From Prorocentrum cordatum (lineage: Eukaryota > Sar > Dinophyceae > Prorocentrales > Prorocentraceae): a stretch of DNA of 64,000 nt. Positions 1-54,481 of this stretch are shown in pieces. The stretch covers positions 15,001-79,000 of the forward strand of contig CAUYUJ010017870.1 of the NCBI GenBank assembly GCA_963575745.1, in the 5' to 3' direction. The notes under the pieces are model-generated. The model saw nothing but the letters and a program-made list of their open reading frames with translations, made no database searches and was not told the DNA's origin. Each line of letters begins with the position of its first letter. Position 1 is the stretch's first letter. The translations under genes were made by a program, and so were the position numbers.

Positions 1-168
1 GCCTGCGCGGAAGCGCACAGGACAGGGGCCAGCACAATGCCCCTGGCGAGGCACAGCCAGGCCCGCCCACCACACGTCTCGGGCGCTGCGTCGCGTCGCA
101 GATGCCCTGCGCCTGACGCACTTGTGCGGGCGGTGCACAGTGCCATCGGCGGCGTCACTTTGCAATAA
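1..168 (+). CDS. Open frame at left edge, hypothetical and partial
   Basis: Frame 1 is open from the first base to a TAA at 166-168 (55 codons), with moderately GC-rich third positions. The opposite strand is also open here, so the strand is not certain. No domain is recognisable. It may be the end of a gene that starts outside the window, or chance in GC-rich DNA. Confidence 0.18.
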   Translation, partial: ACAEAHRTGASTMPLARHSQARPPHVSGAASRRRCPAPDALVRAVHSAIGGVTLQ

Positions 169-254
169 CAGCTGTCTTCATCATCAAAATCTTCCCCCCA
201 AACCCCTTGAACAGGGGATATGTCGACCCCGATCTGCGACTTAGTGAGGTTGTT

Positions 255-445
255 CAAATGGATTAACAATGATGGGCCCAACTCGGGAACATGCGTGGGG
301 GGGTCCATCCTCGAAAGGGGTGCGTCCAGACAGCCCCCCGAGGGGTGTATCCCCCAGTGCCCCTCCTTTTCTGCGCGGCCTGAGGTTTCTAGGAGAAGTA
401 TGGGATCGGGAGGGGGAATCGCCTGCGACCTTTTCCTCCTCCTCC
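255..445 (+). repeat. Dispersed repeat family E, copy 1
   Basis: The segment matches 19785-19975 in the same orientation at moderate identity. Both contain an ACTCGGG start, a GGGGTGCG block, a TTTCT block and end near AATCGCCTGCGA. No coding potential shared by the two copies was seen. Confidence 0.5.
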
Positions 446-484
446 TCCTCCTCCTCCTCCTCCTCCTTCTCCTCCTCCTCGTCT
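429..484 (+). repeat. (TCC)n microsatellite
   Basis: A nearly pure TCC run follows family E copy 1. Similar CTC/GAG tracts recur at 7118-7198, 21577-21672, 36355-36421, 45058-45172, 51905-52015 and 59040-59140; two of these lie inside introns. Confidence 0.85.
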
Positions 485-727
485 CCAGGGTCGCACTCAT
501 GGGGCCCACGTCTGCAGGGAACCGCGTCTACCGATAGATTCCCCAAACAGGGCTCACGCTAAGGGCTTCTGTCTTCTAAGGGGCTGGGCCTGGCTGCGGC
601 GCCAACGGCCCCGTTTCCGTCCGTCGCCGCCCCGATGTTCAAAAATAGAGATGCCGGTCCGCGGGGCCCGGCGGAGCCGGTCCCGTCCGTCGCCGCCGCC
701 CCGCTGCACCCGCCCACTCCCCCCGTC

Positions 728-1430
728 GCACATTGCTTTGCTTCGCATTGCTTTGCAATCGCACTGCGCTGCACTCGCGCTGCATGGCTGCAGTCGCAAC
801 GCGTCGCATTACTTTGCACTGCTGTGCATTGCTTTGCACTGCGCTGCATCGCGTTGCATTGCATTGTGTTGCCATACTTTGCATGGCTTTGCTTTGCGTT
901 GCAGTTCGTTGCATCGCGTTCCATAGCATTGATTTGCGTTGCATTGCATTGCGTTGCGCTGCGTTGCATTGCTTTTCGTTGCGTTGATTGTCATTGCGTG
1001 GTATCCATTGTCATTGGTCTGCACTTCTTTGAATTGCTGTTCAGTTCATCGCTTTGCACCCCTTTGCATTGATTTGCATTGCGTTGCATGGTGTTACTGT
1101 GCCTTGCTGCGCATTGCTGTGGATTGCGTTGCACTGCGTTGCATTGCTTTGCTCTGCTTTGTATTACTTTGCATTGCGTTGCATTGCTTTGCATTGCGTC
1201 GCAGTGCGTTGCATTGCTTTGATTTGCATTCCTTTGCACTGGTTTGCATTGCGATGCATTGCTTTGCATTGCTTCGCGTTGATTTGCATCGTTTTCTATG
1301 TCGTTGCATTGCGTTGCATTCCTTTCCTTTCGTTTGCTTCGCTTTGTATCGCTTTGCACTGCTGCGGATTACCTTGCATTCCGTTGCATTCCCTTGCATT
1401 GGTTTGCACCACATACATTGCAACATATTC
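728..1430 (+). repeat. Pentanucleotide array, TTGCN-type
   Basis: About 700 bp of imperfect 5-bp periodic DNA (TTGCA, TTGCG, CTGCG and variants). Because 5 is not a multiple of 3, every frame yields a 5-residue repeating pseudo-protein, which explains the overlapping open frames on both strands. The same kind of array, as GCAATGCGATT units, recurs at 55834-56150. Confidence 0.9.
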
Positions 1431-1439
1431 TGAGTTCTG

Positions 1440-2075
1440 CTTTCTAAAAATAGAATCTACCGCCCTGCCCCCAACCCCACCTCCCCCAGACGTATCGACC
1501 CCCACTCCTGGGACACACTGCAAATGCATATGATTATGCTCATCGTCCATTTTCAATCTGAACTCAGACCACCAGGGGACCACCTGATCGCCACCCCCCA
1601 GCCCTGTCAAACAATACCATGCTCGCGCACGCGCTTATAGCAACATATACTGTTACCAAAACCCCAAGCGCAAGCGGAACAAAAGACACAGTCCACACTC
1701 GCGCGCACATCCCGAAATCACACCAAATACGTCAGTGTCGCAATGGTTTTAGCATCCCGAGACACCATAGGTGCTCCATCAAATACGAGTCTTGCAAATC
1801 GTCTGCCCGCGCGTACTTCCTGAAAAGGTGTGGAAGCCATACGAGCTTAGCAGTCTGGCCCACAGACCGCATTCGAACTTCATCACGCGGTGCATCCGCG
1901 TTCATCAAGCATGCGCCCAGCGCACGAATCCTCACTAAATCAACCCATGCGGGCCACCTTCGCGCGTCCACCGCGCGCGCATGTCGAACCAATTCGAAAC
2001 ACCCGCATTCCGCACGGGATTTAAAATTGACCTCTTCAAGAATAGAGCTCTTCAACAACGCATGAGCATCCAATA
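1440..2075 (+). repeat. Duplicated block, copy 1
   Basis: This block matches 2664-3290 in the same order: a TCTACC-CCCCAGACGTATCGAC start, a GCGCACGCGCTTAT block, and a CGCGGTGCATCCGCGTTCAT block with GCATGCGCCCAGC. Copies are diverged by many substitutions and small indels. No gene is recognised in it. Confidence 0.65.
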
Positions 2076-2663
2076 GATGTTCAACAAGAGGTTTACCAAG
2101 GTTCTTGGATTTCCGCGCGCCAACATCCTCCCAACAGCATCCACCAACGCAACCGCATCACGCCACCGGCGTCGGCAGTCGCCGCCACCATCACTCAAAC
2201 ACCTTCGTCGCATACATATGGACATCATCATCGTCTTCGTCGGCGTTACCAGTATCGGCGCCGTCACCATCATCGCCACCACCTTCGCTACTATCATCAT
2301 CGTTGCCGCCGTTGTCGACGTCATAAAGATACCGCACCCGCCCGAGCCACCGACCGCATTGAAGTGCCCGCGCGCCAGCGCGGCTTTTGACACGCGCTGG
2401 CAGATCCCATCGGTAAGCGTCATCGCGGCCGCATCGTCTGCGCCAAACCAACTGGCCGCTCTGCGCGCGAGCTTGCGCGCGTCAGCGCGGCCGCGGAGAT
2501 GCGCCAGCCATGGCCAAGCAGACATCGCAGTCGCCACCGCATGGATTTTGCAAACCGACTTGCGGGTGGGAGGGTGACATGGATGATTCTGCGAGCAGTG
2601 AAGTAAACAGCTCAAGAGCTGGCAAAATGAATCGCGCCACCTAGATTTCACCACATTTATTGT
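2076..2663. other. Spacer between duplicated blocks, no gene seen
   Basis: It contains an imperfect CATCATCGTC-type trinucleotide tract at about 2220-2325. Open frames on both strands are compositional. Nothing else was identified. Confidence 0.5.
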
Positions 2664-3290
2664 ACCACCTAGATTCTCCGCTCAAGAGAACAGACTCTAC
2701 CACCCTCTACCCCCCCGGACGTATCGACACCGCAAGGGCACTGCACAGTACATCTTGATCTGCGTCATCGTTTATTCTTCACATGAGTTCATACCGCCCC
2801 GAGGCACGCTGGGCACCGCTCCCCCCCCTCACCCCTGTCGAATAACACTATGCGCGCGCACTCGCTTATCGTAAAAACAAAAACATGGTGCAAGAACTCC
2901 TTGCGCGAAACTGCACAATTTCCACACGCGCGCACACGTCGGAACCATAGCAAAAGCACGAGTTCGTCACGCACTTCAGCAGAAACAGAGCAAACCCTTG
3001 GGCTTTCGAGCGCACAGTTTGCAAATGTTCTGCCCGCGCGCATTTGCCGAAACCATAAGGAAACAATTGGATGTGTTGCAATCTCGCCCAGAACCACCTT
3101 TCTCGTCTCACCGCGCGGAGCATCCGCGTTGATCCAGCATGCGCCCAGCTGCACGAACCCGTATCAAATAGTACCTTGCGGGCCACACACGCGCGCCGCC
3201 ACGCGAGCGCGTCGAAATCCTTTCAAATCCAAGTGTGTTCAAAGAATTCCAAAACAAAGCTCTTCAAACACGAATACATAGAAACACAAG
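2664..3290 (+). repeat. Duplicated block, copy 2
   Basis: Partner of 1440-2075, in direct orientation about 1.22 kb away. It retains the GACGTATCGAC, GCGCGCACTCGCTTAT and GCATCCGCGTTGAT landmarks. Confidence 0.65.
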
Positions 3291-4046
3291 CAGTACAAGA
3301 CATGCTCGAAAACATGTCCGGAAGAACACATCGAGTGTCACCCATGAGCTGGCAAAACTAACTGCACCGCATAGACTGTAAGAGGTTACTGATTTGGGCC
3401 CGCGCTGGTTAGTATCTACATATATACATACGTATATTGTCGTGTCAACGCGTCCTCTGGGATGCGGCTGAACGGGAACTGCCCGGCAAGCAGCACGTAC
3501 AGGAAGACGCCCAGGCACCTCAGCCATGCAACGACAAGGCACAAAGGCCCTGCCATTATCCGACTACCCCTTCCTGCTCGTCATGCCTGTCATCCTGCTG
3601 CTCCTGCTCGTCCTCCCAATCGGCGTCCGTCCTCCCTCCTCCTCAGCCCCCCTACTCGCTATTCTCTTCCACTCCACTCCTCGCCTCATCAATGGTATCA
3701 TTCCCCGTTCCCACACACACACACACCCGCAGCAAGCCGAAGAATCCGAGCGGCCGACCCTACCACCTACCAAAAAGCAGAGAGTAAGCGCCAAGCTCGA
3801 GGAGACACGGAAGAGAAGATGGTTCCACGTTCCCCTTTCTCCGCCTCTCCCTCCTCCTCCACGCCTTCCCTCGCGCACCGAGCTCGTGAAGCCCCTGGGC
3901 CTGCGGATCCCCCCCCTTTCTCCTCTGCGTTTGCACTCGCTGCTTCTCCCTGCGCCTGCATCTCCCGTCCCAGTGCTCCTTCGCGTCCTGACTTGCTCTC
4001 TCGATCTCCCCCGTCACTTGGCGGCGCGCACGAGGGGGCAGGGGAA
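3291..4046. other. Low-complexity pyrimidine-rich stretch, no gene seen
   Basis: Mostly CT-rich sequence from 3560 to 4010 with a short CA run near 3711-3726. Overlapping open frames exist in several registers but none has a recognisable motif. Confidence 0.5.
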
Positions 4047-4176
4047 GGGGGGGAGGCTTCTTAGAAGGAGGCTGCTTATGAGAAGGCGCGGGCCTTGCGT
4101 CTGCAGACAAGCAGACAAGGCCCGCGCCTGCTAAGAAGCAACCTCTTAAGCTTCTAAGAAGCCGTCCCCCTCTCCA
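4047..4176. mobile_element. Short inverted-repeat (foldback) element
   Basis: The left arm, GGGGGGAGGCTTCTTAGAAG from 4047, pairs with CTTCTAAGAAGCCGTCCCCC near 4151-4170. A second nested arm pair (GCGCGGGCCTTG with CAAGGCCCGCGC) is centred at about 4108. The whole can fold into a two-stage hairpin of about 130 bp. It resembles a MITE, or an intron-forming inverted repeat as seen in the kinase gene. No target duplication was verified. Confidence 0.6.
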
Positions 4177-5398
4177 TACCCCCCTCTGCATGTGGCCGAC
4201 TCACACCATCCCTCACTCGTCCCCCACGTGCTCATTGACTCACGCATTCACGACAAGACATACAGGAGCGTCTCAACCACAACTGTTCTCGCAGAAATCT
4301 TTCCCTGCAACCCCGCCTTCCCCCAGAAGAGGAGTGCTTCCGCGCCCACAGACGAATGAGCTGTTTCTCCACCCCTCCCAAAACTCCACGGCGTAGCAGA
4401 GGCGCTGGGAATGGTGAAGCTGAGACAAGCAGTTGTACATATTTCCCTGGCTGGCCACCCTAAAGACAAAGCCTGCATATAGCCTGCAAGAGTCTGTGAT
4501 TCGCTAGCCTGTACAAAGCCTATGGCTAGCGATTTGACTGCTGGCAAGGCCTCGACAGTTCATACCAGACAGACGCACACTTGAGAAGAACGACGTAGGC
4601 TTCAGCCACAGTGCGTTCGAATGAATTGAACTGAGAAGGCGACGTTGTTTCGGTGCCGGACAAGGGACAATAAGAATGGCCCGACGGCCTGGATGGATGT
4701 CCGTCCTAACGGCATCCGATGCCTTTAACTTAAAAAAGTTGAAAAATGTCAAATTGCCACATGGATCGTCAAAACAACGTTTTGCGTTGTCGTTTCGATG
4801 TCGTGCCAAACGCTGTGCGTGAGGTTGTTCTCAAGGGATTTCGGGTCGATCCATGATCTGCAAATATATACCACTGCGAATGCGAGACACCGTCGCAAAC
4901 GCGCATCCTGTACGGACGTGCGGCTGGAGCTAAACGCCTCCATGTCAATACCGCACACCCTGCGCGTGGACGGACTGGCACAAGGGAGGCCAGAGCAGGC
5001 AGAAGGCCAGAGTTGAAATTGGTGGGGCGCCCAATCGTTGGCACTCGGCCGCCACTCAGGAAGCACCCGAAGATGGCTTGCTCGCCGTCCATCCTGAGAT
5101 AGGGGACAGAAAAAAAACAGCCATGTCAGCGCTGGGTTCCAAAGGAGTTGCGTGAGCGCCCCCGGAGCCGCCCGAGCACTGACCTGGCCAATCAACCGCG
5201 GAACTGCCGCCTCAGGGACGCAATGAGTCGGGTCAGTACTCGGGCCTCCCAGGCATCACCTTAAGAGACTCGGCCGACCCGAACGCTGACAAGACCTTTT
5301 TTCTGGATCCCGATGAGAATGATGACCGCCAATGGCTACGACAATGCGCACGCAAGAGCTCTCACTGGAAGGCAAAAATGCACCGATACCGCTACGTC
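4177..5398. other. Intergenic stretch, no gene seen
   Basis: Lower GC than the surroundings. A small dyad around a GCTAGC core is visible at about 4502-4530. Open frames of up to 148 codons on the minus strand lack recognisable motifs. Confidence 0.4.
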
Positions 5399-5580
5399 AG
5401 CTTCGTGTCGTGCCGACTTCGGCGTTGGCATTTGACGCCGCAGGGATCGTTCAACCTTGAACGATCGGCCGTTTCCGAAACGTCCAAATCGTTCCACATC
5501 GACCGATTCTGGGTCGCCCGCGGCGTTCAACGTTGAACGCCGCTGGCGGGGTCGCCGCCGGTCGACACGACACGAACCTA
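5399..5580. mobile_element. Inverted-repeat element family F, copy 1
   Basis: About 180 bp bounded by CTTCGTGTCGTG and CACGACACGAAC. Inside are two small palindromes, GATCGTTCAACCTTGAACGATC and GGCGTTCAACGTTGAACGCC. The same layout occurs at 60191-60375, including a GATCGTTCAGCCTCGAACGATC palindrome. Copy number, matching ends and absence of coding sequence suggest a MITE-like or intron-forming element. Confidence 0.6.
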
Positions 5581-5755
5581 CCGTACTCCTCTCCTGGGGT
5601 GCAATCTGACCAGACTCTCAAGAAGAGTCCAGCCGTGGTGACGGGGGCTCTCCAGGACGAGCAGTGGCATCGGAATCTCTTCCTCCTCTGAAAGATGGCC
5701 TACTCGCCGTGCCTCCTGAGAGTGAGGATCGGCTTTGTCGGCGGCCAGCCCAGAA

Positions 5756-5920
5756 GGGAAGTGAGAGGGGGCGGGCCTTCCGAGGAGGCTCGGAAGACCT
5801 CAGGTCTTCTGAGAACTGTTCTGACCCCTCCCCGGAGACGCAGGAACCTTCTCGGAAGGCCAGAGGGCTTCTGAGAAGCCCCGCCTCCTTCTGAGAAGGC
5901 CCACTCCCTCTCACTTCCCC
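5756..5920. mobile_element. Inverted-repeat element family G, copy 1
   Basis: Ends are GGGAAGTGAGAGGGGGCGGG and CTCCCTCTCACTTCCCC, giving good terminal inverted repeats over about 165 bp. The inside is rich in CTTCTGAGAAG palindromes. Related copies lie near 21766-21945, 35835-35998 and 36945-37125. It lies 55 bp past the stop codon of the LOV kinase, so it is probably in the 3' untranslated region or just beyond. Confidence 0.6.
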
Positions 5921-5974
5921 CCCCCCGGGCTCGCCGCCGACCACGGCCCCGGCAGTGCGCGCGCAGGAGCTCTC

Positions 5975-8408
5975 TCACCGCAGCCACGGCTCGTCCCAGA
6001 CGGAGCCCCGGCGGGGGCCGAACGCGTCCTCGCCCAGCGTCAGGCGCTTGGACGGGTCGAGCTCCAGCAGGCCCGCGAGCAGGGAGCAGAGCTCGGGCGA
6101 CGCGATCTCGCTGATCCAGAAGGAAAAACAACGGCATCGTATAAGCATCATCTTGTGGAGCTCCGCGCGGATTTCTTCGATCGACGCGGGGGCCCTCCGC
6201 CCTGACGCGCGGAACGCGCCAGGGGCGGCGCCGCAGGCGCCGCCAGGTGGGTCCAGCGCAGATCCAAGAAATCCGCGCGGAACTCCGAAGTTGACGTTTA
6301 CGCCGTCGTTTCTTCTTCGCCAATGGCCCTTCTGCAGCTCGGAGGCCTCCGCTTCTTGAAGAACGCCGCGACGCCCTTCGCCTTCACGTACTCGAAGCAC
6401 TTGTCACCCCCAGACGTCGAGACCCAGGGGTAGTCCATCAGGCACATGGCGTACAGCATCACCCCCACTGAGAACGCGTCGGACAGGAAGCCGTCCCTGG
6501 GACCCACGTCGTCGAACATCTCAGGCGCCTGGTAGCTCGGCTTGCCCGTGGCACGCTGCGCAACGAAACGCTGGGCGGTTGCGGCCCCGAAGTCGATGAG
6601 CCGGGCCCGTGGGGAGTCGGCGCCCTCGCGCGTGCTGAGCAGCACGTTTTCCATGGAGAGGTCGCCATGGACGACGGACAGATTGTGGAGGCACTGGACA
6701 GCGTGCATGATCTGCTTGATCAGGGGCTTGACGCGCAGCTCGCGCTCCAGACCGGGCTGCTCCTTCAGCTCGGAGGCCCACTCGAAGAGGTCACCCCCGT
6801 TGGCGAACTCTGTGACAACGCTCGTCGCCTCCTGGTCACGGTAGACGCAGAACAACTGCATGCAGTATGGGTAGCCCACGCTGTTGAGGAAACAGTTGCA
6901 GCCGATGTCGCTCCACGGCTGCTCGATCTCGCCCGGGTGCGCCTCCTCGAAGGCCTGCGGCGAGTCTCGGATCCAGGCGTTGGGCATCCGCTTCACGGCC
7001 AGCAGCACCCCCTCGTCGACGGTCCTCACGAGGCACACGCTGCCCTGATTGCGGCTCGCGTCCTCGATCAGGAGGGGGAGGGGGAGGAGGGGGACGGAAA
7101 GGAGCAGGAGGGAGAGAGGGGAGGAGGAGGAGGAGGAGGAGGAGGAGGAGGAGGAGGAGGAGGAGGAGGAGGAGGAGGAGGAGGAGGAGGAGGAGGAGAG
7201 TGGCTTGCCGATCCTCGATCTTCCCCAGCGTCTCGAGGCGGCCCGCGGGCCAGGGCTGCACGCTCGCCACGTCGAAGCCCTCGTGGAGCGCCGGCGGCGC
7301 AGACCGCGGCCGCCGCCCGGAGCCCTCGCTGCTGGGCGTGCTGAGGCGCGCCCAGGAGCCTGACTACCTACCAGACCACCCCAACCCAACCCGAAGGCCC
7401 GAATTTGACCCGAATTTCGGGTTGGGGGGGTACGGATTCCATGTGTTTTTTCGATGTTCACCGACCCCCCCCCCACTGGAAATCGAGGATAAATTTGGGC
7501 CTTCGGGTTGGGTTGGGGTGGTTTGGTGGGTGGTGAGAGCCCTCGTCCACGTCGATGTCGTCGAGGCCAGACGTCATGGCCGTGGAGGTGTCCGACACGA
7601 AGCGGCTCCACTCGGCGCCGGCGTCGCCGAAGCCGAGGTCGCCTTCTTTGGCGGCGAGGGCCCTGGCGGCAGCGGCCCCACGCCGCACCTGGGCGGCAAA
7701 GCCAGTCGGGGGGTCCGAGTGCAGCACCGCCAGGCCGACACCGGCCTGCAGCGCGAACGCGGGCTTCACGGACTTGGGGCCGGTCTGCCGCCGGGCGGAG
7801 GCCGAGTACCAGAAGTTGCGGCTGAGGACGTCCTCGACGGCGCGCATGTTGTCGCTGAGGCGCGCGAACGCCTGGTGGCAGAAGGAGGCCAACTGCACCT
7901 CGTTCGCGTCGTTTTGCTGCCACTCCTCTGGCAGCCTGGCCTGCAGGCCCAGGATGAAGGGCCGATCGTTGAGCTCGACCTGCTTCATGTAGAACATGTT
8001 CCTGAACAGCTCGCCAGATTTCATGGCGTTGGTCTGCACACAGATGATCTCGCCTGGGCGCGCAGTCATCCAAGGTTGTGTCTTCAGATACTCAGTTATC
8101 GTCTCGTCGGGGACCGGATCCTCAGGAGAGCCCTTGGTGGTGCGAACATAAAGGCGGCACCGAAGTCGCGTGTCCTCGTCGATGTCGTGATCCGGCACAC
8201 CGCTGAGCAGGAAGCGGCAATTGCGGCCCATGACCTCCTCAACGGTGTAACCAGTGAGTGTCGTGAACCCGTTGCTGCACGCGATCAACGGGCAGTCCTC
8301 CTGGAGGGGGTCTGCGACAGTGACGGAAAGGTTCAGCTTCAGGAGCTCGCTGTGCTGGGACACTGCGTCGACTATTGCCTGAAGCTGGCAGCTCCCATCG
8401 ACTTCCAT
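5975..8408 (-). CDS. LOV-domain photoreceptor Ser/Thr protein kinase, 4 exons
   Basis: Exons on the minus strand are 8408-7541, 7359-7214, 7062-6302 and 6110-5975; together they make 1911 nt, 636 residues plus TGA, with phases closing at every junction. Residues about 25-160 form a LOV/PAS domain with the flavin motif GRNCRFLL (61-68, photoreactive Cys64) and the C-terminal strand pattern SGELFRNMFYMKQV. The kinase domain runs from about 331 to the end: VAVKR with Lys362, HGDLSMEN (Asp472, Asn477; HGD instead of HRD), IDFG (Asp495), APE (517-519) and the last-lobe pattern LDPSKRLTLGE. The order LOV then kinase suggests a blue-light sensor that controls its own kinase, as in phototropin-like proteins. 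The P-loop is unusual, with only part of the glycine motif. The start ATG at 8406-8408 lies 70 nt after a relict spliced leader, supporting this 5' end. The frame stays open further upstream, so an earlier start is not excluded. The substrate is unknown. Confidence 0.85.
6111..6301 (-). mobile_element. Intron 3 of the LOV kinase: inverted-repeat family A, copy 1
   Basis: GT-AG intron of 191 nt. The donor is GTAAAC after ACGGC; the acceptor is TTCTGGATCAG with a T-rich tract before it. Joining gives GCC and continues EIASPELC. The core is an inverted repeat: TTCCGCGCGGATTTCTTGG near the donor pairs with GAAATCCGCGCGGAGCTCC near the acceptor, with a GGCGGCGCC-type inner hairpin. The same element is found outside any recognised gene at 22245-22350, 40005-40160 and 45946-46097. 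Confidence 0.75.
7063..7213 (-). mobile_element. Intron 2 of the LOV kinase: CTC-rich, flanked by 9-bp direct repeat
   Basis: The frame before this tract ends in LGKIE and the frame after it resumes with DASRNQG, so removal of 151 nt restores the kinase P-loop. The core is a long CTC run (GAG on the plus strand). GATCGAGGA occurs at both boundaries, so the exact cut is ambiguous, but a GA-AG intron fits. The direct repeat looks like a target-site duplication from an insertion that is spliced out. A similar intron is at 45041-45196. Confidence 0.7.
7360..7540 (-). mobile_element. Intron 1 of the LOV kinase: inverted-repeat introner-like element
   Basis: Inferred GC-AG intron of 181 nt. Exon 1 ends GACGAGG and exon 2 begins GCTCCTGG, restoring a Gly codon. 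Most of the intron is an inverted repeat: CCAACCCAACCCGAAGGCCC near the donor pairs with GGGCCTTCGGGTTGGGTTGG near the acceptor. GGCTC is present at both intron-exon boundaries, like a target duplication. No second copy was found in this window. Confidence 0.7.
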
Positions 8409-8478
8409 CTTCTGCTCGACAACTGAAGGACACTGGTGGTCTGACAGCGACGCGCTCAGATGGATGCGACCGAAAATG

Positions 8479-8510
8479 CTTGAGCCAAAAGGGCTTGAGC
8501 CAAAATGGCT
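8479..8510 (-). other. Two tandem relict dinoflagellate spliced leaders
   Basis: Read on the minus strand, 8510-8494 is AGCCATTTTGGCTCAAG, a 17-nt match to the 3' part of the conserved 22-nt dinoflagellate spliced leader. It is followed at once by CCCTTTTGGCTCAAG (8493-8479), a second copy with one mismatch over 15 nt. Relict leaders in genomic DNA mark trans-spliced mRNAs that were reverse-transcribed and reinserted; two in tandem suggest two rounds. They sit 70 nt upstream of the LOV kinase ATG, in what would be its 5' leader. Confidence 0.85.
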
Positions 8511-8523
8511 GAGAAACGTGCGG

Positions 8524-9146
8524 GACAGCCTTGCGGGGTGCGTTTCCGATTGGAGCTGTCTTCGGCGACCAAGTCATCGTAGAAGTACCGAGCCGCATCC
8601 TCAGTACCCTAAGGAGGCCCTGGAGGTAACGCGGGTGGTCTCGAAGTGTTTGCGAAGGGGCCCAGCACCATGTGGCCCAGAAGCCAAAACTCCGACTCAC
8701 TGTATAGCTCAATTCATACCAACATCTGCCGCAGCAGCAGCGGGGGAGGGGGCGAGGGAGTGATGAGCCCGCCCCCACCCCAAGTAGAGGCCAGCGACGG
8801 CGATGAAGACGACGACGGCGCCAGGCCCCACTGCTGCGCGCGACAGCGGGCGGGCGCGTGCAGCTGAGGCTGGCCTGGGGAAAGCCGGGCAGGGAAAAAC
8901 ACAATCACCTAGGGCTCCCAACTTCGCGCTTCGCGCTGCGCGAAGCGCGAATAACTTCGCGCTCTCGCGCCGCCCCCCAAGGGGGAGAAGAGGAGGACGA
9001 GGAGGAGGGGGAGGAGGAAGGAGGACCGCGAAGCGCGAAGCGCGAATAACTTCGCGCCCTCGGGGGAGCCCTTGCTCACCGACTTCAGCACGGCGGGCTC
9101 CGCCCGACCCACGAGAAGGGCCAGGGCGGGCGGAGATGTGCTCAAC
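8524..9146. repeat. Repeat-rich spacer upstream of the LOV kinase
   Basis: 8727-8895 resembles 9722-9830 in the same orientation (CAGCAGCGGGG, GCCCGCCCCC and GGCCAGCGACGGC-like blocks). At 8925-9056 an inverted/direct repeat of CTTCGCGCTTCGCGCTGCG and CGAAGCGCGAATAACTTCGC brackets a GGA-rich tract. No gene was seen. Confidence 0.5.
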
Positions 9147-9723
9147 ATCGTGGGGCGTCGGCCGTTGCGCTGGACGCCTCGCTCGTGGAGAGCTGACTTT
9201 GAACCCAATGCGACGGGAGCTTGAAGAGTTGAGTCCTTCGCGAGATGTCTCGGAGCTGCTCAGGGCTCTCTAACGTGGTCTCGAAGGCCTCAAGAGGGTT
9301 CCAGAAAAAGGCCGCCAACCTGGCACGAAAAAGGCTTTTTTGCGTGACAGGGTATTGGGTTCGCTCGAATGGCGTCTTGGGCTTTTTTGGAACACAACTG
9401 AGCCTTCTAGGGGGTCCTCGGGGCGGCCGCGGGGGCCTCTGGGCCCTCCAGCGCGGTCTCGGGCCGCCGCAAGAGAGCTCCAACAGGGCCAGCAGCTTGC
9501 CACGAAAAATGCCTTTTCTCGTGGCAGGCTGTGGGGTCCACTTGACGTACCCTTCGGGCACTGATGGGGTAGAGCATGCAAGATGCACTGCGGGAGTCCA
9601 AGAGTCAACAAGGAACGCGCTGGTAGACGCGCCGCCGCCGCCGCCACGGCCGACCGACGCCGCCGCCGCCGCGGCATATGCGAACCCAGGCCCCTGGCAA
9701 CCACACCGTTGCCCAGGGAACGC
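9147..9723 (-). repeat. Long direct repeat, left copy (LTR-like)
   Basis: About 570 bp aligns along its whole length with 16038-16593 in the same orientation. Landmarks in order: TGGGGCGTCGGCCG, GAGTCCTT, GATGTCTCGG, GGCCTCAAGAGGGT, GGGGCGGCCGCGGGGGCCTC, CAGCGCGGTCT, GCAGACGCGCCGCCGCC-like, and CAACCACACCGTTGCCC. The two copies enclose the decayed reverse transcriptase region. They could be strongly diverged LTRs or terminal direct repeats of that element, or two copies of an unrelated dispersed repeat. Confidence 0.6.
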
Positions 9724-10169
9724 ATCTGCCGCGGCAGCAGCGGGGCGAGGGGGCGACGAACCCGCCCCCGCCCGAAGCACAGGCCGGCGACGGCCACGGC
9801 AAAGCCAGGGAGGGGAGAACATGACCCCGGGCCCACCGCAACCGTGCCAAAACCCGGCGCACACCGAGCGGCAGGACACACGTGGGACCGCGCTGCTAGC
9901 GGACAGCGGCAGCCGCGGCCACCCCGCGGCACGGGCGCGGCCGCGGACGCCGGCAGGCGCGCGCCGACCCAGCCGCAGGATGCGGCAGGTCACCTGGAAA
10001 AAAGCCCGCCAGCGACGGACCCCGACGGACAGCGGCAGCGCCCCTGCACAACAAACGGCGCGCGCCGCGGCCGGCCAGCTGTCTTCAATTCAGCTCATGA
10101 CGATGATTGTCGCAGATTCCCGCCTGCACGCGGCCCTGGGTCTGAGGACGCTTGAATGGCGCCTCTGGC

Positions 10170-12180
10170 CGTCAGCTCACTCACGTCGCCGCGCGACGGA
10201 CCATCGGCAGGACTGTCCCCCGTGGACACGTGGTCGACGGGCGCCGCGATGTTTGCTCAGACGGCCATGTGCCAGAACAGGCTGGCAATCTCACACACGT
10301 CCTCGGACTTGGAAAAAAACCCTTGATCGATGCCCCCTCGGCCGCCTCGGAATCAACGAAGAAGAGCACCCGGCGCAAACGCCAGCGGTGCTCCGGAACG
10401 CCGAACACGACTGGCAGCGCGAACGTAGCTCCACCATGTGATCTGGTTTTTGCGGGGCAGCCACTCCCCCGCCCGCGCCGCGACGTCGTGGGAGCCCACG
10501 AAGACCTCGCCGGACGGCTTGAAGAATGCCGCCCGCCCATGCCCAATCCACCCCAGCCTGGCCAAAGGAGCCGCGGCTCTTTTGGCGGCCTCTGGGCAGC
10601 GGCCGTCCGCGAGCATGGCGACGTCGACTGTCTTGTCTGCGCCGCGTGAACACAGCGCTCCATCTTCTCCGTTATCTCCAGCCAGCAATCGCTGCCAGAC
10701 GTGAAGGCAAGCTGCTGGGCCGGCCCGAGCGCCCAGTCCGGCCGCGGCTTCGCTCTCTGCCGCTCGGACAGGGCGCGCAGGGAGCACTGGCCGAAACGCC
10801 CAACTGTAGTGGTCCGCGGCGACGCCGAGCTTGCCGCGGAGCTTCCCCGCCGGCCCCGGCTCGGGCGCGTCGGCGCGCAGGGCGTCCGCCATGGCCGAGG
10901 TCAGCTCCGCCGCGCGTGCCTCGGCCGCGCGCGGGCGCCCCCTCGCGAAAAAGTTGGACGCGCCCAGCGCGTCGATGTCCTGCCCTGCCTGCAACCTACT
11001 GGTTGAAAAGTCAATGCCGAGCCATGTGTGAGCATCTGCGGTCAGAGCGATCTCCTCCGATGCCAGCGCGTCCGCCGCGCAGCCGAAGTCGTCGTCGCAG
11101 TTGCTGAAATGGGAACAAATGGAACAGCTTCACGAGGATGTCAGTCACCATCGAAGCCCGGCGGCCGCTGTTATGCAGAGCGGCCGATCATCGCGAAATA
11201 CGCCGGCCTCCCCTTGAGGAGGCCCAACACAAAGACAACGGCGCATCGGCGGTGCACTGGGGGCGTGGGGATCTCGCGGCAAGCGCCCGCACTCCGTGGC
11301 GCAGGCGGCCTCGGCTGCGGGCGCGGCGTAGTCCACTCCGCGAGTCTGGCTTTTTCTGGGCCACGCCGAACCTCTCCATGGCAATCCTGTCGGGTGTTCC
11401 TGCGTGTCGAGCCACGTCCTTGTGCCTGTAGATCGGCCCAGCGCATGCGCCCCGACCTCTGTCGCCCAGGGTGTCACCCAATTCGCGTCGGCGCGCCGCG
11501 TGCCGCTGGACTTGGCCAGCTCAGTCTCGATCGGCCCCCTGACTTCCCAAGCCCTGGTTACCAGCGTTGCGGGGTCGCAAGCTGGCTGCCAGCGCGAAAG
11601 GTGGGCCCGCCCCACACTGGACAAACCCTGCGAAAACTCGTCGCAGCACTGCGCAACGACGCCGCCCGCGGCACGCTGCATCTCACGGAGGAGGGCCAGG
11701 TGGGCGAACCCGCCGAGCTCGCAATCGCCCTTTCGGCTTACAGCGGCACTCCAGGAACGGCCGGCGGATGCATGAGCGTGGCATCTCCGCGGTCAAATCT
11801 AGGTTCTCGGATTTCAGCGCCTCCCTGCCCGCCTGCAATGCGCTCCCGGCCTCTGATCGACGGCGCGACGCCACCTCTGAGCTCCCCCGCTGGATGTCCA
11901 CCGCTCCGATCAGATTGTCCGCCGGGGGCGCCGAGGCCGAACGGGCGCTGCCGTCTCAGCGCGCACTTGACGACGGTGCCTGGCTCCATCTCCTCCTCAG
12001 GGATGATCGGCGGAACTAACCATCGGCGCGCCTGGCCACTGGCTGCAATCGACAACTGGCCTCTCCTCTGAAGCTTGCGCACTGGCCCGGCCGCCGGCGC
12101 GCCTAGGGCCCGCTCGCGCCCGCGAGCGACAATGTCAAATGACGGCTCGAGCATGGGCGGCGCGAAGGCTGGCCCCATAA
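10170..12180 (-). pseudogene. Decayed reverse transcriptase-RNase H of a retroelement
   Basis: On the minus strand the reading moves between frames. In order: an RT N-terminal-like stretch (about 12180-11740), a degraded palm (about 11680-11060), a thumb/connection region ending LRGKLGVAADHYSW (about 11050-10770), then WLPRKNQI (about 10460). The RNase H-like end is clear: VLFFVDSEAAEGASIKG (about 10370-10320) and, after a frameshift in a T run, VSTGDSPADGPSR (about 10200). A TGA interrupts the last part. The combination resembles DIRS/Ngaro-type RT-RNase H common in dinoflagellates. It is non-functional here. Confidence 0.6.
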
Positions 12181-52869: not shown

Positions 52870-54230
52870 ACGTTTTACTACGGGGACGGGCTGATTTTTG
52901 CCTCTTGAAGGCCCTCTTGGGGCCCTCTTCGGCCATCTTGAAGCCATCGCGGGCCCTCTTGGGCCTCGCTGAAGCTGTCCTGGGGCCCTCTAGGGCGTCC
53001 TCGGAACCCAGAAGTCATGTTCCCGGAGAAGCTTCCGGGAACATGATTTCGAACGGGGCCCTCTTGGGCCTCCCTGAGGCCGTCTTGGGGGCCTCCTGGG
53101 CCAGCTTTGGGGCCTCTTGGGCCGTCTCGGGGGGTTCGGTGAGCCCCACAGGCCGACCCTTTTGGGCCGTCTGGGGCCCTCTCAGGTCTCTCTTGGGCTG
53201 TCTTGGGGCTCCGCGGGGGCGTCTGGGGCACTGTGAAGACGAAGCCAGCGAGTATGCTGAAAATGTACATTTTACAAAGGATATGGGCTGATTTTTGCCT
53301 CTTGAAGGCCCTCTTGGGGCCCTCTTCGGCCATCTTCAAGCCATCTCGGGCCCTCTGGGGCCTCGCTGAAGCTGTCCTGGGGCCCAGTAGGGAGCGCTGG
53401 GAGCCCGAAAACCATGTTCCCAGAGAGGCTTCCGGGAACATGATTCCGAACGGAGCCCTCTTGGGCCTCCCTGAGGCCGTCTTGGGGGCCTCCTGGGCCG
53501 GCTTTGGGGCCTCTTGGGCCGTCTCGGGGGGTTCGGTGAGCCCCACAGGCCGACCCTTTTGGGCCGTCTGGGGCCCTCTTGGGTCTCTCTTGGGCTGTCT
53601 TGGAGCTCCTCGGGGGCGTCTGGGGCACTGTGAAGACGAAGCCAGCAAGTATGCTGAAAATGTACGTTTTACGAAGGACATGTGACGATGTTTGCCTCTT
53701 GAAGGCCCTCTTGGGGCCCTCAGGGGCCCTCTTGAGGCTCTCTTGGTGCCCTCTGGGGCCTCGCTGAGGCTGTCGTGTGGGCATCTTGGGCGTCCTCGGA
53801 ACCCAGAAATCATGTTCCCAGAGAGGCTTCCGGGAACATGATTTCGATCGAGGCCCCCTTGGGCCTCCCTGAGGCCGTCTTGGGAGACTCCTGGGCCGGC
53901 TTTGGGGCCTCTTGGGCCGTCTCGGGGGGTTCGGTGAGCCCCACAGGCCGACCCTTTTGGGCCGTCTGGGGCCCTCTTGGGTCTCTCTTGGGCTGTCTTG
54001 GGGCTCCGCGGGGGCGTCTGGGGCACTGAAGACGAAGCCAGCGAACATGCCGAAAATGTACGTTTTACGAAGGACATGTGCCGATGTTTGCCTCTTGAAG
54101 GCCCTCTCGGGGCCCTCAGGGGCCCTCTTGGGGCTCTCTTGGGGCCATCAGGGGACCACTTGGAGCCTCTTGTGGCCTCTTCGGAGGCTTCTGGAGACTG
54201 AGGGCTGGAATTGTCGGCGAGGGGGCCACG
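52870..54230 (+). repeat. 397-bp tandem satellite, about 3.5 copies
   Basis: The landmark TTTGCCTCTTGAAGG recurs at 52897, 53294, 53691 and 54087, spacing 397, 397 and 396 bp. Each full unit holds a palindrome around CATGTTCCC(A/G)GAGA / GGGAACATG, the block GGTTCGGTGAGCCCCACAGG, and ends with GAAGACGAAGCCAGC and AAAATGTAC. The unit is built from CTCTTGGGGCC words. 397 is not a multiple of 3, so the 480-codon minus frame through it is not a conserved protein. Confidence 0.9.
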
Positions 54231-54481
54231 ATCCTCCGGAGGGGTGCCAAAAAATGGCCCCGGGGGGCCCCCCATGGCGACCAGAAGCAGCAGCCGGGCC
54301 CCCATGGCGACCAGGGGCACCAGTAGGCCGGGGTGGGGGGGTGGGGGTGACTTTTAAGACTATGTGACGCGCGTTGCTTTCTCGCGCCGCGGCTGCTTTG
54401 TTCGTTGTTGTTCCCTTTTGTTGTTATTGTTTGCCCCTTTTCTTGTTCCTATCACGTTACTGGGTGTTCGTTCGTTCGTTC
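54231..54481. other. No gene seen
   Basis: Short GC-rich segment with CCCCCATGGCGACCAG repeated twice (about 54271 and 54300), then T-rich sequence and a TTCG run at 54468-54484. Confidence 0.4.

Follow-up and report, generated by a model that had tools for sequence, protein, structure and literature searches.

Introners have been described from dinoflagellates and other eukaryotes (Gozashti et al. 2022, PMC9860276; review PMC11453091, citing Roy et al. 2023). According to these accounts they carry terminal inverted repeats (TIR) and a target duplication that partly supplies the splice sites, are removed exactly, and are present in many copies at new positions. The introner introns of Amoebophrya, as reported by Farhat et al. 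2021 (PMC7789003), have inverted repeats near both ends and direct repeats over their boundaries, with no consensus dinucleotides and a hairpin joining the exon ends. Nonconventional introns of euglenids are described with variable borders, a hairpin uniting the ends, direct repeats and a proposed MITE-like origin (PMC4770533). In DinoSL retrogenes, relicts of the spliced leader are reported upstream of the start codon (Song et al. 2018, PMC6050394; PMC12014239).

The annotated donors of Prorocentrum cordatum are given as GC in 51.4% and GA in 23.8% of cases, and the tools behind the published gene prediction had been adjusted for GC and GA donors (PMC10666404), so that introns lacking such signals may be under-annotated. 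It is rare for one gene to document intron gain through the empty site, the insert, the duplication and an mRNA tag together. A leader tag is an independent marker of a likely intron-poor state, which allows gain to be ordered against retroposition. In the literature searched, which covered few subscription papers, no title or abstract opening dealt with introner insertion in a leader-tagged retrogene. Here we describe a gene with leader relicts and three introns within a stretch of 64,000 nucleotides of P. cordatum DNA (hereafter, the window).

Gene structure and transcript-like match

The gene lies on the minus strand of the window (8408-5975) and comprises four exons encoding 630 amino acids. 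A domain scan, for which a slightly shorter conceptual protein was used, returned PAS (PF13426) and protein kinase (PF00069) domains. Exon 1 (7541..8408) starts with the ATG at 8408 and contains the PAS domain; exon 2 (7214..7359) is placed by its match to the protein P0001. Exon 3 (6322..7062), the 3' end of which may be up to 4 nt further upstream, contains the kinase domain, and exon 4 (5975..6112) ends with the stop codon (5977-5975). The closest named relative in the protein search was P0002, also from P. cordatum and encoded by contig C13020 (625/625 residues), with Symbiodinium wc-1 and plant phototropins further down. The window protein includes the sequence GRNCRFL, which we take to resemble the LOV photoreceptor motif, and the gene may be described as that of a light-sensor-like kinase.

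P0001 is an uninterrupted frame of 630 amino acids, on a contig no longer than 2584 bp, with its source labelled jgi. Once 181, 151 and 209 nt have been removed, the joined exons encode the same protein without a difference (630/630), which suggests that all three interruptions are taken out precisely. In the genome (4.13 Gb in 21,875 contigs), the best other long match reached only 83% among the 73 matches listed (70 of 745 candidates scored). Given this, together with the short contig, the uninterrupted frame and the source label, P0001 is taken to be apparently transcript-derived. Read in this way, the match fits exact removal of all three inserts at the protein level. The original prediction, that the three introns can be removed cleanly in frame, is borne out to this extent, although the cut drawn for intron 3 has to be replaced (see below). 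Within the same set of matches, a 49 amino acid stretch of contig C10715 at 92% identity hints at a further related gene copy.

Among the surrounding sequences, palindromic CGCGAAG repeats are found upstream of the gene (8932-9062), and a dispersed repeat downstream (5300-5900) has relatives at 21.8, 35.9, 37.0 and 60.3 kb. Long frames of similar proline/arginine-rich repeats are present both at 52878-54320 of the window and at locus L016, and are perhaps a dispersed repeat rather than genes. No Rfam match was obtained at gathering score for positions 1-12000 of the window.

Spliced-leader relicts and probable retroposition

Relict spliced leaders had been predicted at the gene, and two were located in tandem on the minus strand in a 15-nt register. 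The outer relict, CCATTTTGGCTCAAG (8494..8508), matches at 15 of 15 positions and the inner (8479..8493) at 14 of 15. They lie 100 and 85 nt upstream of the ATG, the placement reported for DinoSL retrogenes. Allowing up to two mismatches, 0.13 matches were expected against the two seen, and two were reached by 1 of 100 shuffles. A third candidate directly downstream matches at only 9 of 15 positions, which is chance level. Two tandem relicts suggest that retroposition probably took place more than once. Genome-wide, exact copies of the 21-base leader core number 14,218 (7201 forward, 7017 reverse), with none for the reversed control.

The relict of the C13020 paralogue is 78 nt upstream of its start codon. 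Homology between the two genes on the 5' side (74% over 62 nt) begins at the leader, 2 nt before the outer relict, as would be expected of copies made from leader-tagged RNA. In the 1.4 kb upstream of the leader, comparison with C13020 gave only a few short matches (16–18 nt, E at least 0.07). No poly-A was found in the flanks of the window gene, and the search for a duplicated target on either side of the retrocopy returned only a 9-nt match (shuffled maximum: mean 8.0, largest 14). The original prediction had also held that the leaders imply reinsertion without introns. Leaders alone are no proof of this; dinoflagellate retrogenes with kept introns have also been described (PMC6050394).

Two paralogues, on contigs C10258 and C1443, carry introns absent from the window gene; either is no more than a candidate for the parent. 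In the 320 nt upstream of C10258 there is no leader relict above chance, the best match (9/15) being reached by 68% of shuffles. Three distant kinase paralogues (L050, L054 and L056, on contigs C3767, C3495 and C13410) are each covered by one uninterrupted match and have relicts at 14, 14 and 13 of 15 positions, in tandem in L050 and, as judged by eye, in L054. The kinase family seems to have been spread repeatedly by retroposition.

Downstream, the window gene and C13020 cease to be homologous soon after the stop codon; in both, homology returns at about +0.9 kb and continues to +1.29 and +1.35 kb. The shared stretch (4686..5067, minus strand) is probably 3' UTR. It is common to C13020 and partly to C1443, where it follows the stop codon after about 0.1 kb (a part of it at +0.12 kb) rather than about 0.9 kb, and a 28-nt piece is found at +0.03 kb in C10258. 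Among the 84 records compared, only the window locus, C13020 and C1443 have the stretch at E 1e-8. This distribution fits copying of the whole mRNA; duplication at the DNA level could also account for it. Relative to C1443 and C10258, extra sequence separates the stop codon from the shared stretch, at about 5068-5962 in the window and, in L041, between about 12 nt and 0.85 kb past the stop. This extra sequence in the window gene and C13020 may represent further inserts or 3' UTR introns, so C13020 is to be regarded as intron-free in its coding region and not necessarily beyond it.

Introns 1 and 2

Intron 1 (7360..7540, minus strand; 181 nt, GC-AG) had been predicted as an inverted repeat. Its boundaries fit P0001, for which eight equivalent cuts give the local peptide, GC-AG 7540-7360 among them, and the repeat has 71-nt arms that are 82% complementary. 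The RNA folds as an end-to-end hairpin (z -9.7; none of 200 shuffles as good). Alignment of the family delimits a palindromic insert of 176 nt (TCACCACC...GTAGTCA; 7361..7536), and comparison with C13020 and the family ends places a 5-bp target duplication, GGCTC, on its upstream (7537..7541) and downstream (7356..7360) sides.

The insert belongs to a dispersed family with 2453 first-look candidates; the 40 scored, including the window copy, are all at least 95% identical. Both ends, TCACCACC and GTAGTCA, were recognised in 26 copies from 30 loci, four being dropped for an unrecognised end. Counted among these 26 are the window copy and the pair L018/L021, whose flanks are identical. Exact 5-bp duplications flank 17 of the 26, and duplications with at most one mismatch 21, against 1.6 expected, so that the combination of TIR and target duplication known from introners is present in this family. 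The window insert differs from the majority of the 25 other copies by one substitution and one gap column in 180, and the window copy is the one intronic copy found among the 26. L018 and L021 lie on different contigs (C21445 and C237) and represent either a duplicated segment or separate haplotypes; a candidate frame there had no Pfam match.

Intron 2 (7063..7213, minus strand; 151 nt, GA-AG) consists mostly of a CTC tract, as predicted, and its boundaries likewise fit P0001, with 11 equivalent cuts giving the local peptide and GA-AG 7213-7063 among them. Cut enumeration and repeat measurement identify an exact 9-bp direct repeat, GATCGAGGA, upstream (7212..7220) and downstream (7062..7070). 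No terminal inverted repeat was seen in this intron, and further CTC tracts in the window, at 21.6, 45.1 and 51.9 kb, resemble it mainly in the tract. Of the three different element types originally proposed, two can be retained, namely the dispersed palindromic families of introns 1 and 3; for intron 2, compared with the tracts of the window, no sign of mobility was seen.

It is conceivable that repair of double-strand breaks introduced foreign or slipped DNA and left direct repeats without any transposition. Intron 2, with its simple-repeat content, 9-bp repeat and lack of a visible terminal inverted repeat, would suit such an origin. Introns 1 and 3, on the other hand, are members of dispersed families with recurrent ends, and for the gene as a whole we consider repair improbable in comparison with insertion of elements.

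Intron 3 and its repeat family

For intron 3, the original prediction had joined GT at 6301 to AG at 6111 (191 nt). That cut yields RRAIGEEETTAEIAS, where P0001 and P0007 read RRAISEIAS. P0001 requires removal of 209 nt, with the first base at 6325-6321 and the last at 6117-6113, and the donor at 6301 was rejected because only five equivalent 209-nt cuts give its local peptide. None of these has GT, GC or GA with AG ends; the intron is given here as 6113..6321 (minus strand), one of the five. Exhaustive enumeration of cuts giving P0001's peptide also ruled out 11 further donors paired with acceptor 6111.

The insert of intron 3 (about 204 nt, CGAAGAAG...CCTTCTGG; 6116..6319), with ends inferred from its length and the family alignment, belongs to an older dispersed family. 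Downstream of it lies the coding copy of the target duplication, ATCAG (6111..6115), with the same letters in C13020; the upstream copy, ATTGG (6320..6324), keeps three of the five positions, and the exact repeat count is 0. The intron folds as an end-to-end hairpin (z -9.9; none of 200 shuffles as good). The inverted repeat does recur in the window, as had been proposed, with relatives near 22.3, 40.1 and 46.0 kb. Among 2179 first-look candidates in the genome, 40 were scored, and all but the window copy are 78–89% identical.

Two introns of C10258, at residues 361 and 447, belong to this family, and both have an exact 5-bp repeat. The same repeat therefore forms introns at non-homologous positions (residue 585 in the window gene, 361 and 447 in C10258). 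At residue 361 the duplication AGGAG happens to supply GA-AG. The intron at residue 447 has six equivalent cuts, none with GT/GC/GA-AG ends, and a hairpin of -101.8 kcal/mol, a value taken without shuffle control. Absence of such ends together with inverted and direct repeats, the Amoebophrya pattern, is thus found in this intron and in intron 3 (where the direct repeat has decayed to 3/5). Removal from C10258 is read from protein P0005, which agrees at 251/251 residues over amino acids 362-446, 448-509 and 511-614. Further upstream the agreement is 171/176, 25/27 and 106/107, and these differences in the first part indicate that P0005 may come from another strain. The intron at residue 177, where P0005 differs, was left out of the exact junction test, and introns between residues 209 and 255 were dropped owing to unreliable spliced alignment, masked N and poor match.

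Intron 3 could alternatively be a normal GT-AG intron (6301-6111), with GEEETTA replacing S, and P0001 could derive from an allele without the insert. GTAAAC would be a plausible donor, the frame is kept, and the site falls in a variable loop of the alignment. However, the extra residues are absent from both P0001 and P0007, the element reaches past 6301 to about 6319, and the same family provides the second exact signal-free removal in C10258, there within the conserved QCLHN. We regard the GT-AG reading as less likely and infer that P0001 is the transcript of an allele bearing intron 3; were its donor without the insert, removal in the window allele would not be demonstrated. Intron 3 and the related C10258 intron seem to be excised exactly without GT/GC/GA-AG ends, and two independent insertions of one family fit such removal. 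The main doubt concerns the RNA donors of P0001 and P0005, which may have lacked the inserts.

Among the other copies of the intron 1 and intron 3 families (26 and 12 copies including the window's own, the best 16 inspected), no clear coding context was found. As the copies examined were not in recognisable genes, both families may consist of ordinary MITEs with occasional insertion into exons. In C1443, a 170-nt intron (L071 253-422) has GA-AG ends and boundaries overlapped by a 10-nt direct repeat, and does not match intron 3. Direct-repeat lengths in nine introns are 5, 9, 0 (intron 3), 8, 5, 5, 5, 10 and 4; among 2221 random GN-AG pairs, repeats of at least 4 occur in 6.2% and of at least 5 in 3.7%.

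Empty sites and the timing of the probable intron gain

The C13020 paralogue is a single open coding frame with 87% nucleotide identity to the window gene. The sequences GGCTC, GATCGAGGA and ATCAG each appear once at its aligned junctions, and from the ninth base on the second site reads GATCGAGGAT. In a tree of 14 proteins, with P0007 left out, the window gene and C13020 are sisters with support 1.000 (the placement of P0004 has support 0.151).

From the 73 genome matches, 30 were fetched, two of which are the gene itself and four of the other 28 from C10258. A locus was counted as covering a site when its match reached 10 or more residues beyond it in both directions. All covering loci are without an intron at site 1 (3/3), site 2 (19/19) and site 3 (18/18), the DNA of each match being no more than 9 codons over its residue count; several of the distant loci look like near-duplicates. 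The introns of C10258 and C1443 sit at other sites than the three of the window gene. The covering paralogues, which are the homologues compared, thus lack these introns at the same positions, as had been anticipated and as is typical of introners.

These comparisons bear on whether the introns were simply retained. An incompletely spliced, leader-tagged RNA could have been reverse-copied, in which case the introns would predate the retrocopy, and the retrogenes with kept introns (PMC6050394) provide a precedent. Against this, the fetched paralogues covering the sites carry none of the three introns, the sites in the sister gene are empty, and even the intron-bearing C10258 matches there without interruption. 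The insert of intron 1 is moreover one substitution from its family majority, in a gene far more diverged from its sister. Retention is consequently very improbable.

The relative ages point the same way. Of 287 fourfold sites, 69 differ between the window gene and C13020 (JC 0.29). Set against this, the single substitution of the intron 1 insert makes that intron far younger than the separation of these genes. Intron 3 is probably older, given the change at two of five positions in its upstream duplication relative to the downstream coding copy. The last retroposition may postdate the split from C13020, so the age argument is relative and gives no absolute date. Intron gain after retroposition, as originally proposed, is well supported by the empty sites and by the paralogues without introns at these positions, and for intron 1 also by age.

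Discussion

Our proposal, which we hold to be quite probable from comparison of the sequences, is that a leader-tagged mRNA retrocopy later gained three introns by DNA insertion, each removed exactly. A spliced, leader-tagged mRNA of a PAS-domain kinase would have been reverse-copied into the genome, and the retrocopy would have stayed expressed. Two non-autonomous TIR-like elements (introners) would then have inserted into exons, with duplication of about 5 bp of target in each case, and intron 2 would stem from a pyrimidine tract that came in with a 9-bp duplication. Splicing would remove the insert plus one copy of the duplication, and each insert would have become an intron because the old reading frame is restored in this way. 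In introns 1 and 2 the duplication would supply the GC or GA donor and complete the AG acceptor. The older intron 3 would be removed exactly without such ends, guided by its hairpin; the arms pair along the whole insert, which makes hairpin-guided removal the likeliest route. Both the transposition step and the guidance by the hairpin are deduced from the anatomy of the inserts.

On a broader reading, hairpin introners would be cut out by a core dinoflagellate exactly at the boundaries of the insertion, with no need of spliceosomal end signals, so that any such insertion could become an intron; we judge the chances of this to be even. Signal-free exact removal, if confirmed in a free-living core dinoflagellate, would suggest that the odd splicing of the parasitic Amoebophrya is older or wider, and that introns of this sort may be absent from the present gene models of dinoflagellates.

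Both DinoSL retrogenes and the gain of introners by dinoflagellates are already established. One gene that combines the two, and offers an empty site and dating as well, adds a further clear case. The likeness to the introners described (PMC9860276; PMC11453091) extends to the TIR and target duplication, splice sites partly derived from the duplication, apparently exact removal, and many copies at new positions. This locus differs from those accounts in its leader-tagged retrogene, its sister without these introns and the relative dating, and in that one family has members without GY/GA-AG ends. As in the DinoSL retrogenes reported (PMC6050394; PMC12014239), relicts precede the start codon, here in tandem; unlike in those genes, the introns are arguably new rather than inherited. 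The newer point is the apparently exact excision of intron 3 and the C10258 family intron without the usual end signals. The inverted repeats near both ends and direct repeats over the boundaries resemble those of Amoebophrya introns (PMC7789003), and intron 3 shares with them the lack of consensus dinucleotides and the hairpin joining exon ends, although Prorocentrum, unlike Amoebophrya, is a core dinoflagellate. The euglenid nonconventional introns (PMC4770533) belong to a different lineage, and the likeness lies in the variable borders, the hairpin uniting the ends, the direct repeats and the proposed MITE-like origin.
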